Part shown: positions 37,393-42,574 of the stretch, in pieces
Layout: every line of letters begins with the position of its first letter
How positions within the stretch are numbered: position 1 is the first letter of the stretch
DNA from: Natronococcus sp. CG52
GTDB taxonomy: Archaea; Halobacteriota; Halobacteria; Halobacteriales; Natrialbaceae
Assembly (NCBI RefSeq): GCF_023913515.1
Contig: NZ_CP099391.1
Span: 2,542,001-2,606,000 of the forward strand
Direction: 5' to 3'
Length of the DNA: 64,000 bases
The notes under the pieces: generated by a model
Told to the model about the DNA's origin: nothing
Seen by the model: the letters and a program-made list of their open reading frames with translations, nothing else
Databases searched by the model: none
Translations under genes and position numbers: made by a program

Positions 37393-37530
37393 ACACGGTC
37401 ACCATTTCGTCGCCGCACTTGGTGATCTTCGGCGACAAGAACGACTTCGCGCAACAAAGGGATAAAACCCTCTCGCCGTTAGGTTACAGAAATTCAAGGA
37501 GAAAGCCCACGACTACAGTCGCGGGAGTAG

Positions 37531-37992
37531 TCACCACGGAAGCAACGCCCGCAGCCCGCTCCCCATGGCACCGCCAACGAGACCGTCGATGGCGGTAAGC
37601 GACGAGAACGCGAGCACGATTAGTACGACACTGGGCAATCCGAGACCCGATAATAGTGGGCTGACGGGTCCGAGCGAGCTTAGCACCAGCAACGGTGGTT
37701 CGTTGTACAAGCCGAGTGTCACACCCATCAACGCCGTGATCGTTCCTGCGATGCCGCCCACAACCGCGCTCGCGATCACCGCGTGAACGATACCGGACGC
37801 GATCCGGCCGACGGCGTACGCTGCGACGAATCCGGCGACGGTTCCGCCGCCGATCCGACCGAGCAGCGGCACCATCAACGCGTTGAGGTTGACGAGAGCC
37901 CCGACGACGACGGCCGCGAGGATGATCCACTTGTCGATCGCTTCGAGCGAGAACTCTGCCTCCGTAAAATCATACGACTCGTATTCGTGCAT
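37531..37992 (-). CDS. DUF5518-like four-helix membrane protein
   Basis: A 153-residue membrane protein with helices at about 22-46, 50-75, 78-98 and 115-140, rich in Gly and Ala (GRIGGGTVAGFVAAYAVGR). The shape and glycine-rich helices resemble the DUF5518 family of haloarchaeal proteins, whose function is unknown. The N-terminal 20 residues are acidic and cytoplasmic. It lies just downstream of the acidic-repeat gene on the same strand, with 51 bp between them, and could be cotranscribed. Confidence 0.6.
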   Translation of the reverse strand: MHEYESYDFTEAEFSLEAIDKWIILAAVVVGALVNLNALMVPLLGRIGGGTVAGFVAAYAVGRIASGIVHAVIASAVVGGIAGTITALMGVTLGLYNEPPLLVLSSLGPVSPLLSGLGLPSVVLIVLAFSSLTAIDGLVGGAMGSGLRALLPW

Positions 37993-38043: not shown

Positions 38044-39411
38044 TCACGATCCCAGATCGCCGGTCTCGCCGACCGTTTCGTCGGTGGTTTCTTCGGTCTC
38101 GTTGAGTGTGTCGTCGACCGATTCTTCGGCATCATCGACCGCTTCGGCAGCCGTCTCCTCCGTATCAGTGTTCGTTTCGTCTACCGACTCTTCGGCGTCA
38201 TCGTCCGTTTCTTCGGTGTCGTTGACTACCTCTTCGGTGATTCTTCCGGTATCATCGACCGTTTCTTCGACCGTCTCTTCAGCGTCGTCGACAGACTCCT
38301 CGGCGTCGTCGGCCGTTTCGCTGACTGCCTCTTCGGTATCATCGACCGCTTCATCGGCAGTTTCTTCGGTTTCGTCAAGGGTATCGTCGATCGCTTCCTC
38401 GCTGTCATCGACCGACTCTTCGGTGTCGTTAACTACTCCTTCGGCGGTTCTCTCGGTATTATCGACCGTTTCTTCGACCGTATCTTCAGTGTCGTCGACG
38501 GTGTCACCGGCCGACTCTTCTGTCTCATCGACTACGTCGTCGGCTGACTCTTCGATGTCATCGATCCCTTCATCGGCGGTTTCTTCGGTCTCATTGATCG
38601 TTTCGTCGACGGTTTCTTCGGTTTCGCTGACGGTGTCGTCGACCGTTTCGTTAGCGATCTCTTCGGTCTCGTTGAGGGTATCGCCAACCGTCTCTTCGGT
38701 GTCATCGACCGTTTCTTCGGTCGCCTTTTCAGTGTCGTCGACGGTGTCACCGGTCGACACTTCTGTCTCATCGACTACGTCGTCGGTGGCTCCTTCGGTT
38801 TCGTTACGGGCGTCGTCGACTAACTCTTCGGCGTCATCGCCCGTTTCTTCGACCGATTCTTCGGTTTCGTCGACCGTTCCATCGGTAGTCTCATTAATAC
38901 TATCCGATACGCCGCTCGAGTTCTCGTCACCGTCGTCACCCTCGTCGATATCGTAGCCGCCGGCGCTGGGGATCTCGCTATCCGGACCGACTTCGACGTG
39001 ATATCCGTTCGCCGAGAGCCCGTACGTCGTGATAGCGTCGGCGTTGACGACGACGTTCGTCTGATCGCTGTCGAAGCACTCGCCGCGGTCCGCGAGCTGG
39101 TTGAGTCCTTCGTTCTGGCGGTCGATGTGTAGCACTATCGTCGCTTCCGGCTGCGTCTGCTCGAGTTCGACTCGCCTGTCCTCGTCGAGGTAGACGGTGA
39201 TATCGTCGTAGCTGGCGTTCTGGACGATCACCTGGTTGGTGTCCGCCGTGAGCTGCTGGGCGCAGACGGTGCCGCCCTCGATCGTACCGAACTCGGCCGT
39301 GACGAGGTCACGGTCGGATTCCTGCGCGAGTGCTGGCATTGTGCCGATCCCCGCGACGCTGCTGGCGAGGACGACCAGCGCCGCGATGACGACTGTGCGC
39401 GTTCGACTCAT
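38044..39411 (-). CDS. Secreted highly acidic protein with 11-residue repeats
   Basis: A 455-residue exported protein. A Sec signal (VVIAALVVLASSVAGIGTMP, cleavage near ALAQ) precedes a folded domain of about 130 residues with two cysteines. From about residue 185 to the end it consists of some 24 copies of an 11-residue unit such as ETVDDTEETAD. Val/Ile, Thr and Ala/Val recur at steps of 3-4-4, the pattern of a hendecad coiled coil, while the rest is almost all Asp, Glu and Thr. It may be a stiff, charged rod on the cell surface. It is the third gene of the DUF6230-DUF6114 operon. Confidence 0.75.
   Translation of the reverse strand: MSRTRTVVIAALVVLASSVAGIGTMPALAQESDRDLVTAEFGTIEGGTVCAQQLTADTNQVIVQNASYDDITVYLDEDRRVELEQTQPEATIVLHIDRQNEGLNQLADRGECFDSDQTNVVVNADAITTYGLSANGYHVEVGPDSEIPSAGGYDIDEGDDGDENSSGVSDSINETTDGTVDETEESVEETGDDAEELVDDARNETEGATDDVVDETEVSTGDTVDDTEKATEETVDDTEETVGDTLNETEEIANETVDDTVSETEETVDETINETEETADEGIDDIEESADDVVDETEESAGDTVDDTEDTVEETVDNTERTAEGVVNDTEESVDDSEEAIDDTLDETEETADEAVDDTEEAVSETADDAEESVDDAEETVEETVDDTGRITEEVVNDTEETDDDAEESVDETNTDTEETAAEAVDDAEESVDDTLNETEETTDETVGETGDLGS
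38090..38880 (-). repeat. Tandem 33-bp coding repeats
   Basis: Degenerate 33-bp units, about 24 of them, encode the 11-residue acidic repeats. Units vary in third positions and in the Ile/Val/Ala sites, so the array is old rather than freshly amplified. Confidence 0.75.
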
Positions 39412-39451
39412 GTGCCGGTCCAGTCCGTCGCTCGACCCCGGTCTACTCGTT

Positions 39452-39967
39452 TCACTCGTCGACACCTCCCTGTTTACGGATCTCGGCACCGCCGCGCAAC
39501 CGCACGGCCGTTTTACTGACGATTCGGCGGGTGCTTTCGCGCAGTCGCGCGACCGCTCTGTCGACTTTGCTGGGTTCCGACGCAGCTTCCTCGTCGCCGG
39601 GCTGCCACGCGATACAGAGGTTTCCACCGAGGATCCCGAGCAACATCCCGACGAGCAACCCGCCGAGCGACCCGAACAGCGAGAAGATCGACAGGACGAC
39701 GCCGACGACGCCGATCATCTCGGCATACTTCGGCTGGTACAGCGCGAACACGCCCGTCACGAAGACGAACACGCCGAACATCGCGCCGATGGCGAGAAAG
39801 CCCGCCATATCTCCGCCGATGAAGATGATGTCGGGCAAGATCTGCATCGGTACCCAGGTGATGATAATTCCGGCCAGGCACAGCAGGATACCGCCCAGGA
39901 ACGGACGCTGGAAGCGCCAGTCGTTGAATCGTTCCCGTCGGCTCCCGGAGCTGTTTTCGGTGGCCAT
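39452..39967 (-). CDS. DUF6114 membrane protein
   Basis: A 171-residue protein with four membrane helices (FLGGILLCLAGIIITWVPMQ, DMAGFLAIGAMFGVFVFVTG, a third at about 80-95, and a glycine-rich LGGLLVGMLLGILGG) and a basic cytoplasmic tail. It matches the DUF6114 family, found next to DUF6230 genes in actinobacteria and haloarchaea. Its function is unknown. A GAGGAG ribosome-binding site formed by the last codons of the DUF6230 gene, 7 bp upstream, points to coupled translation. Confidence 0.78.
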   Translation of the reverse strand: MATENSSGSRRERFNDWRFQRPFLGGILLCLAGIIITWVPMQILPDIIFIGGDMAGFLAIGAMFGVFVFVTGVFALYQPKYAEMIGVVGVVLSIFSLFGSLGGLLVGMLLGILGGNLCIAWQPGDEEAASEPSKVDRAVARLRESTRRIVSKTAVRLRGGAEIRKQGGVDE

Positions 39968-39973
39968 CAGTGA

Positions 39974-40582
39974 TCACTCCTCGTAGGACACGTTGACGTC
40001 GAGACCGGGGAGAGTGATCTCGTTAGAGGCCAGATACACCATCTCGATCTCTGCGTCCTCTTGTACCATGCCGGGACCTTCACCTTCGATGTCGGTCAGT
40101 TGTCCCTTTTCGGGCTCGGCGTTCTCACCGGCCGTCTGTTGGAACTGCTCGTTCGGATCGTCGCTCTGCTGGGCGTTGATGACCTGTCCGTTGAACGTCG
40201 CCTCCTCTGCGCTCTGTCCGGTCATCTTGAGGTACTGTTCATCGGCCTCGACCGTCTCGTCGGCGGTGAACTCGATCACCATGGAGCCGCTGAGCCCGGG
40301 TAGTGCGTCGACGGGCTGTTCTCTCGTCAGCACCATTTCGTCGATTTCGACGCCTCGCTGTTCGACGACGACGACCGGCGTCGTGCCCTCGTTACTCTCC
40401 CCCGCCCCCGGGTAGAGGAGGAACTCCTCGGATCTGATCTCCTCGGCTTCGACGGTGAAGCCGCCAGCGCCGGCAAGCGGTGCGGCGTACGCGGTCCCTG
40501 ACGACACGACGATGAGGCCGACTAACGCGACCATCAGAAACGATGCGCCCGTTCCCGTCAGTAATCGCTTCGTATTGTACAT
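39974..40582 (-). CDS. DUF6230 exported protein
   Basis: A 202-residue protein with a hydrophobic signal or anchor at about 12-30 (ASFLMVALVGLIVVSSGTAY) and a beta-rich outer domain (GAGGFTVEAEEIRSEEFLLY, DLNVSYEE-like end), matching DUF6230. Function unknown. An AGGAG ribosome-binding site 8 nt upstream fixes the start at 40,582 rather than ten codons earlier. It is the first gene of a three-gene unit with DUF6114 and the acidic-repeat protein, all of which are membrane or surface proteins, so they probably form one envelope system. Confidence 0.78.
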   Translation of the reverse strand: MYNTKRLLTGTGASFLMVALVGLIVVSSGTAYAAPLAGAGGFTVEAEEIRSEEFLLYPGAGESNEGTTPVVVVEQRGVEIDEMVLTREQPVDALPGLSGSMVIEFTADETVEADEQYLKMTGQSAEEATFNGQVINAQQSDDPNEQFQQTAGENAEPEKGQLTDIEGEGPGMVQEDAEIEMVYLASNEITLPGLDVNVSYEE

Positions 40583-40917: not shown

Positions 40918-41769
40918 ATGCAATCGAAATCGTTCGCCGAGGACGAAATTGTCGACTTCTACAACGACACCGCGTGGGAGTACCGCTTCTTCTGGAGCGA
41001 TCTCAACCTTCATTACGGGTTCTACGACGACGAGCATTCGACCCATCAGGAAGCCATGGAGAACTCGAATAAGGTCTATGCCGACAAGCTCGACGTCGAC
41101 GAGACGGACACGGTCCTAGACATCGGGACCGGACGCGGCGGGCTCCCGACTCACATCGCGGCCGAATACGGCGCCGACGTCCACGGAATCGACATCGACC
41201 ACCGTCACGTAGCGGAAGCGAGAGACAACGCGCGCAAACGCGGCGTTTCGAAGCACACCGAGTTCGACGTCGGCGACTACCACGATATCCCGTATCCCGA
41301 CGAGACGTTCGACGCGGTCTCGGGGATCGAAACGGTCTGTCACTCCGAACGGAAAGGCCGCGTCCTCGAGGAGATCCACCGCGTTCTCAAACCCGGCGGT
41401 CGCCTCATGATCGCCGACGGATATATGAGTCGGACAGAACTGACGGATCCCGAAGCGGAGAAGATGCGAACGGTCCTCGACGGCTGGGCCGTCCCGGAGC
41501 TCGCCCACATCAGTGAGTTTCGAGAGATGCTCGAGACCCTCGGATTCACGGACGTGACGTTCGACGACCACTACGATCGGATCGTTCCGTCCTCCCGCCG
41601 CCAGTGGTGGCTTTCGTTCGGCGTCACGCCCCTTCTCAAGATCGCGTCTACGCTCGGGATCAAGAACGAGTCGTCGGTCGACCAGGGGATAACGCTCTAC
41701 CACCAGCGCGACATCATCGAGCGCGGAATTGCCGTCCACGGCGACTTCACCGCCGAACTCCCGGAATGA
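40918..41769 (+). CDS. SAM-dependent methyltransferase (UbiE/tocopherol-type)
   Basis: A 283-residue class I methyltransferase. Motif I is VLDIGTGRG (66-74), the acidic end of strand 2 is VHGIDID, and motif post-I includes GDYHDIPYPDETFDAVSGIE and KPGGRLMIADGY. The N-terminal LHYGFYDDEHST resembles the gamma-tocopherol and sterol methyltransferase group, which acts on prenyl or lipid substrates. It is cytoplasmic or loosely membrane-bound. The ATG at 40,918 is chosen over 40,897 because it follows the promoter motif at a suitable distance. It starts a run of lipid-catabolism-type genes. Confidence 0.8.
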   Translation: MQSKSFAEDEIVDFYNDTAWEYRFFWSDLNLHYGFYDDEHSTHQEAMENSNKVYADKLDVDETDTVLDIGTGRGGLPTHIAAEYGADVHGIDIDHRHVAEARDNARKRGVSKHTEFDVGDYHDIPYPDETFDAVSGIETVCHSERKGRVLEEIHRVLKPGGRLMIADGYMSRTELTDPEAEKMRTVLDGWAVPELAHISEFREMLETLGFTDVTFDDHYDRIVPSSRRQWWLSFGVTPLLKIASTLGIKNESSVDQGITLYHQRDIIERGIAVHGDFTAELPE

Positions 41770-41923: not shown

Positions 41924-42574
41924 ATGAGATACGCAAAATGTATTATCATTCCTGACGGCGAGGGATTGCATCCGGTCGATCGGCAGATTGCGGAGAATCC
42001 CGACGTCACGCGGGAACTCCTGCACAATGTCAACCTGCTCGCGAACGAATCGATCGTTACACTCTATCAACTCTCGGGCGACAGAGACGCGCTCGAGTCG
42101 ATCCTGGACGAATCGGCGATGGTCTACAAGTACCAGCTCTCGGGTGCCGGCGACGAGATTCACGCGTACATCCACATCAAGGCCGACGAACGGCTCGTTC
42201 AGCTGTTGAGCGTGATCCGGAAGTTCGAGTTCATCTTCGATACGCCGCTCGAGTACACACGACGGGGCGGACTCCGCGTGACGGTGATCGGCGATGTCGG
42301 GAGCTTCCAGAAGGCCCTCCCCGACGTTCCTGACGGGATCCGACTCAAACTCCTCAAGACGGGTACTTACGAGCCGAACACGGACCGCCTGTTCTCCCAG
42401 CTCACGGAGCGACAACAGGAAATCCTCCGGACTGCCGTCGATCTGGGATACTACGACGTACCCCGAAATGTGACTCACGAAGAGATCGGCGCGGACCTCG
42501 GCTGTACCGGCGGAACGGTCGGCGGCCATCTGCGAAAGATCGAGGCGAAGATTCTCACGCAGATCGTTCCGTGA
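41924..42574 (+). CDS. Bacterioopsin-activator-type HTH regulator
   Basis: A 216-residue haloarchaeal regulator. The N-terminal part (about 1-150) is a sensory region without obvious cofactor residues. The C-terminal HTH_10 domain is clear: LTERQQEILRTAVDLGYYDV, then THEEIGADLGCTGGTVGGHL. Regulators of this class bind DNA and usually control nearby genes. It stands between the methyltransferase and the SDR and acyl-CoA genes, so control of this cluster is a reasonable inference. It has the usual length. Confidence 0.82.
   Translation: MRYAKCIIIPDGEGLHPVDRQIAENPDVTRELLHNVNLLANESIVTLYQLSGDRDALESILDESAMVYKYQLSGAGDEIHAYIHIKADERLVQLLSVIRKFEFIFDTPLEYTRRGGLRVTVIGDVGSFQKALPDVPDGIRLKLLKTGTYEPNTDRLFSQLTERQQEILRTAVDLGYYDVPRNVTHEEIGADLGCTGGTVGGHLRKIEAKILTQIVP

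Follow-up and report, generated by a model that had tools for sequence, protein, structure and literature searches.

Proteins of the DUF6230 and DUF6114 families are present in many Streptomyces and in some haloarchaea, and the function of both has so far gone without description. A search of the literature on DUF6230, DUF6114 and HVO_0513 returned nothing functional, DUF6230 being named once and DUF6114 never. Since that search found none of the proteins of the present module to have been studied, we infer the function of the module from its anatomy alone.

The closest arrangements are found in actinobacteria. The initial annotation of the locus had described the DUF6230-DUF6114 pair as known from that group, and it is indeed found in Streptomyces, Actinokineospora and Flexivirga, where, as here, a DUF6230 gene is followed by a DUF6114 gene and a third extracellular domain is added. 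At one of these loci (L056), PF19741 and PF19609 are matched with E-values of 1e-44 and 1e-32, respectively. In Streptomyces the third domain is appended to the C-terminus of DUF6114; in the other two genera it is a separate protein. It differs from the haloarchaeal one, to which profile comparison finds no kinship, and it is without an acidic repeat; inspection of the actinobacterial loci found an acidic repeat gene downstream in 0 of 22. The divergent upstream regulator is TetR-like in looks in actinobacteria, whereas the haloarchaeal one is of the HTH_10 type, and the DUF5518-like gene of the haloarchaeal unit was seen in none of the actinobacterial operons.

Two other systems resemble the third protein of the present locus. 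The S-layer glycoprotein of haloarchaea and further surface proteins modified by AglB are likewise exported and acidic, with N-x-S/T sequons and AglB present. In the third protein, however, the sequons are arrayed in a repeat and not scattered, no C-terminal anchor or archaeosortase motif is seen, and glycosylation is only predicted. The 11-mer helices of apolipoproteins and perilipins share with its tail the 11-residue periodicity and a hydrophobic face that is weak and made up of Thr, Val and Ala, but the tail has almost no basic residues, is far more acidic, is exported, carries sequons on its polar face and falls below the Pfam cut-off.

The four-gene unit and its surroundings

The window, that is, the whole stretch of 64,000 nucleotides analysed, contains the following features at this locus.

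39974..40582, minus strand: DUF6230 gene (202 aa; PF19741)
39452..39967, minus strand: DUF6114 gene (171 aa; PF19609)
38044..39411, minus strand: third gene, exported protein of 455 aa (signal peptide cut ..PALA/QE)
37531..37992, minus strand: DUF5518-like membrane-protein gene, fourth of the unit (153 aa; sub-threshold PF17647)
37506..37525, minus strand: terminator-like stem-loop with a T-rich tail, 3' of the fourth gene (from a scan of the region that gave about as many such structures as expected by chance)
40918..41769, plus strand: class I SAM-dependent methyltransferase, divergent (283 aa; PF13847, PF08241)
41924..42574, plus strand: regulator with HVO_0513_N and HTH_10, divergent (216 aa; PF24278, E 5e-44; PF04967, E 1e-15)

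Three minus-strand genes for DUF6230, DUF6114 and an exported acidic repeat protein had been described at 40582-38044, and Pfam matches and the signal peptide bear this out. The proposed three-gene operon stands for those genes and not for the end of the unit: the intergenic gaps, in gene order, are 6, 40 and 51 bases, the last leading to the DUF5518-like fourth gene. The ATG start of the third gene agrees with its homologues in the alignment. Between the present genome and Natronococcus sp. AD-5, dN/dS was found to be ca 0.16-0.32 for the four genes and ca 0.33 for the tail of the third protein, the alignment of the tail array being approximate. These values indicate that the four reading frames are real, and by this codon measure all four genes, tail included, are under purifying selection (dN/dS ca 0.16-0.33).

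The fourth gene scores 14.4 bits against DUF5518 (PF17647; E 0.043, with E 0.004 for the Natronococcus copy), which is under the gathering threshold of 27, and we therefore call it DUF5518-like only. It occupies the equivalent position at the Natronococcus, Natrialba, Natrinema, G175 and G255 loci, and a homologue of the HTH_10 regulator adjoins the module at most Natrialbaceae loci. Both the fourth gene and the divergent regulator belong to the cassette. The methyltransferase at 40918-41769 stands beside the module in Natronococcus, Natrialba and G175, and other genes are found there in most Natrinema. A phage origin of the region was considered and rejected, PHROGs giving weak tape-measure matches to the repeat and nothing else. 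A sigma-70 scan was also set aside, as it is meaningless in archaea.

The DUF6230 protein is a member of PF19741, with 31.1 bits over aa 42-199 against a gathering threshold of 27.5 (E 3.4e-7), and has a signal peptide cut at ..AYA/AP. The haloarchaeal and actinobacterial DUF6230 profiles match each other with a probability of 91 and an E-value of 9e-7, and the AF2 model is an all-beta ectodomain at pLDDT 64. Membership of the DUF6114 protein in PF19609 is clear (91.8 bits against 27.9, E 5e-26, aa 14-122). About four transmembrane helices are predicted in it, and the alignment of haloarchaea with actinobacteria contains the motifs RPFxGG and LGGxxxGxxxGxxGG..AWxP. Foldseek searches of the PDB with the models of the DUF6230 and third proteins, which are of moderate confidence, gave nothing at E 0.001 or better, and the top matches are meaningless; sequence searches of the PDB with the three family profiles gave no matches.

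The two-cysteine domain and its exchangeable tails

The third protein falls into two parts, within the second of which AF2 predicts a helix.

38938..39324, minus strand: conserved N-terminal domain (aa 30-158; from alignments)
38047..38937, minus strand: acidic tail (aa 159-455; periodicity and 9 sequons)
38083..38532, minus strand: continuous alpha-helix predicted in the tail (aa 294-443; AF2)

The N-terminal domain, of ca 130 aa, has two cysteines, C50 and C112, that are invariant in the alignments, and no family in Pfam or NCBIfam matches it; it defines an unannotated family. When its profile was compared with those of DUF6230, the F11 third proteins and the actinobacterial third domains, no significant match was obtained. 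The idea that the domain is a divergent DUF6230 or a form of the actinobacterial third domain was rejected, the hhalign probability being 1.4 or lower. A profile search found the domain in 15 of 292 haloarchaeal genomes, while DUF6114 is present in 32 of the 292. All 15 copies lie within ca 1 kb of a DUF6114 gene, which makes the domain a faithful partner of DUF6114. Since neither an archaeosortase motif nor a membrane anchor at the C-terminus is seen in the third protein, its attachment is an assumption on our part.

The tails are more variable. Hendecad tails occur in the present genome, Natronococcus AD-5, G175, Natrialba and G125, and on the F11-type third proteins of G156 and G255. The tails of the Natrinema orthologues, also at a second Natrinema locus, are unpatterned, of low complexity and NETD-rich, and those of the g70 genomes are Ser/Thr-rich and without hendecads. 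At four haloarchaeal DUF6230-DUF6114 loci (G143, G005, Natrinema ejinorense and G255) the third gene is absent, which indicates that the module can work without the stalk. It had been suggested that the repeat protein is the archaeal partner of a shared envelope module, a suggestion to be abandoned if haloarchaeal neighbours of the pair lacked a repeat. Such neighbours do exist in part, at the loci just named, so that the suggestion holds for the N-terminal domain and not for the repeat itself. The conserved partner of DUF6114 is the two-cysteine domain, and the hendecad repeat is a lineage-specific, exchangeable ornament.

Fusions are also found. In the g43 genomes, a single protein comprises DUF6114 and a DUF6230-like ectodomain (hhalign E 9e-9, probability 95.7), after which comes a sequon-dense Ser/Thr tail, and in the g46 genomes a DUF6230 paralogue ends in 4-5 PKD domains. 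Because fusions set the partners on one chain, they argue for a membrane complex, as far as can be judged from sequence. The g46 genus group (L030, L119, L123, L124) has 5-8 DUF6114 genes per genome and tandem DUF6230 paralogues. At L117 2589-4595 and L125 3579-5663, DUF6114 forms the C-terminus of proteins of ca 670-690 aa that have a low acidic content and are apparently polytopic membrane proteins.

Periodicity and sequons of the acidic tail

The tail (aa 159-455) consists of 45% Asp/Glu and 18% Thr, with 1.3% Lys+Arg and no Pro, and its net charge is -130. The spectrum of its apolar residues peaks at 3.66 residues per cycle, close to the 11/3 (3.67) of a hendecad coiled coil and with the 3-4-4 spacing of one; the height of the peak is 25.2, compared to shuffle maxima of 9.5 (1000 shuffles) and 13.5 (300 shuffles). 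An apolar period of 3.625-3.675 was found in eight tails of differing sequence from several genera, and the hydrophobic moment of the hendecad tails is ca 0.34-0.44. Self-identity at lag 11 amounts to 39%. About 24 repeats of 11 residues had been counted at the outset, and while the periodicity, the spacing and the acidic, Thr-containing background are confirmed, a strict 24 x 11 array is not: of the 26 intervals that separate TEE-like motifs, 16 measure 11 residues and the remainder 4, 7 or 15, lengths that for the most part retain the helical phase. Codons at lag 11 have a dS of ca 1.5 and a dN of ca 0.46, compared to a dN of 1.33 for shuffled codons; judged by these codons, the tandem copies are old and their synonymous sites saturated.

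In the AF2 model, for which only a few alignment rows cover the tail, aa 294-443 form one helix, with pLDDT 80-88 over aa 311-400. The concern that the repeat might model as fully disordered is thereby removed, although aa 156-293 have pLDDT below 50. In some lineages the stalk may be helical, as the hendecad pattern suggests.

Of the 11 Asn residues of the tail, 9 lie within N-x-S/T sequons, compared to 47 of 336 (14%) elsewhere in the window. Four hendecad tails gave 9/11, 20/23, 27/29 and 13/13, and an excess of N-x-S/T was seen in all 14 tails tested. The share of Asn in sequons exceeds that of Asp in the same arrays, with Fisher p from 1.9e-7 to 0.1 per protein, values that are not independent of each other because the rows are related. 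In 8 of 8 hendecad tails examined, the sequon Asn is located 107-180 degrees off the Val/Ile/Leu stripe, on the polar face of the helix that is predicted. The archaeal oligosaccharyltransferase uses N-X-S/T (PMC8241124), and one of the AglB type is encoded in the genome (STT3, E 2e-23). At the gene level, the third protein thus has what an AglB N-glycoprotein needs, namely a signal peptide, 9 tail sequons and a genome that encodes an oligosaccharyltransferase, and its tail is probably N-glycosylated.

Matches to the tail at E 1e-6 are found in 4 of 61 family genomes. The present genome also encodes a protein of 597 aa (L131 1512-3305, minus strand; G000:C1:2271011-2272804) that is unrelated to the third protein and consists, in order, of a signal peptide, an acidic, NxT-rich, hendecad-like stalk, a membrane segment and two winged-HTH domains (HTH_24, HTH_5). 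This ArsR/MarR-like protein seems to be a regulator anchored in the membrane and bearing a stalk on the cell surface, and since a similar extracellular repeat stands on an unrelated HTH protein, repeats of this type are not confined to the module. In G101, a 258-aa protein with two transmembrane segments and ETVGETVEETVEKT hendecads (L136 1711-2487, minus strand) lies beside phosphate-permease-like genes; it is probably a cytoplasmic coiled coil. Weak matches to the Ag473 lipoprotein, phasin, ZorA and others are below the cut-off and were dismissed as coiled-coil or composition effects.

A proposed membrane display module and its alternatives

We now turn to what the module may do. The explanation that we prefer, at a probability of roughly 0.55, is a membrane display module, in which an envelope complex of DUF6114 and DUF6230 shows glycosylated polyanionic stalks. 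It builds on the gene neighbourhood, its conservation, the periodicity, the sequon excess and the fusions. DUF6114, with its four transmembrane helices, would be the membrane scaffold on which the exported ectodomains, DUF6230 and the two-cysteine domain, dock, and AglB would add N-glycans to the long polyanionic C-terminal tail of the third protein. The tail would then project from the cell, within or above the S-layer, as a charged, hydrated and sugar-coated bristle. In the present lineage it would have gained the 3.66-residue amphipathic periodicity and would probably be a long helix, over its second half at least, with the glycans on the polar side. Because other lineages hold unpatterned acidic or Ser/Thr-rich tails in its place, the helix would be one spacer design and not the conserved function.

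It could instead be that the hendecad tail forms a right-handed coiled coil, through which the protein would assemble into an oligomeric, rigid stalk or adhesin; the function would then be oligomerisation and not glycan display. The period with its 3-4-4 spacing, recurring in eight differing tails, would fit, and so would the continuous helix of 150 residues in the single-chain model; a weak PDB match to a three-helix bundle (E 8.5e-4) is probably compositional. The steps of 4, 7, 11 and 15 also agree with a coiled coil in mostly keeping the helical phase, but slippage in a unit that is self-similar at offsets 4 and 7 can have the same result. The core, moreover, would consist largely of Thr, Val and Ala, Leu and Ile being nearly absent, the chain carries 130 net negative charges, half of the tail is not helical in the model, and the Natrinema and g70 orthologues have no such periodicity. 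We consider this explanation unlikely. Rather less probable is that the tail is a low-complexity by-product of slippage and halophile acidic composition, tolerated on an exported protein and having only a spacing role. Tail length and type do vary between genera, and at four loci the tail is missing along with the gene; the low dN relative to dS at lag 11, the dN/dS against Natronococcus AD-5 (on an approximate array alignment) and the concentration of Asn in sequons, where Asp could fill the same positions, speak against it.

We also considered the possibility of an amphipathic 3-11 helix, with the tail lying on lipid in the manner of apolipoproteins or perilipins. The tail matches Apolipoprotein A1/A4/E (PF01442) with E 1e-9, its 38.9 bits being well under the cut-off of 90, so that it is not a member of that family; ApoLp-III matches it under the cut-off as well, and the tails of L039, L031, L029 and L035 also match Apolipoprotein/ApoLp-III. 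The hydrophobic moment would be compatible with such a helix, but the mean hydrophobicity is about zero, basic residues are scarce and the net charge is ca -14 per 33 residues. Haloarchaeal membranes are themselves anionic. In perilipin 4, a charge shift from +1 to -1 in each 33-mer abolished lipid-droplet binding (PMC5889406). With the charge that the tail has, lipid binding is very improbable.

More tentatively, and at somewhat less than even odds, the display module may be one case of a platform that archaea and bacteria share, in which DUF6114/DUF6230 carry exchangeable C-terminal stalks (glycosylated hendecad helices, acidic or mucin-like tails, PKD arrays) and the hendecad form is an N-glycosylated polyanionic helix. 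We found no described example of such a helix as a stalk design in this analysis. The further extracellular domains paired with DUF6230-DUF6114 in both groups, together with the haloarchaeal fusions, make the membrane complex a concrete proposal. If the tail is indeed glycosylated, it would serve as a simple model of the way in which polyanionic stalks with a coat of sugars are made in extremely saline surroundings, where the surfaces of protein and glycan face molar salt.
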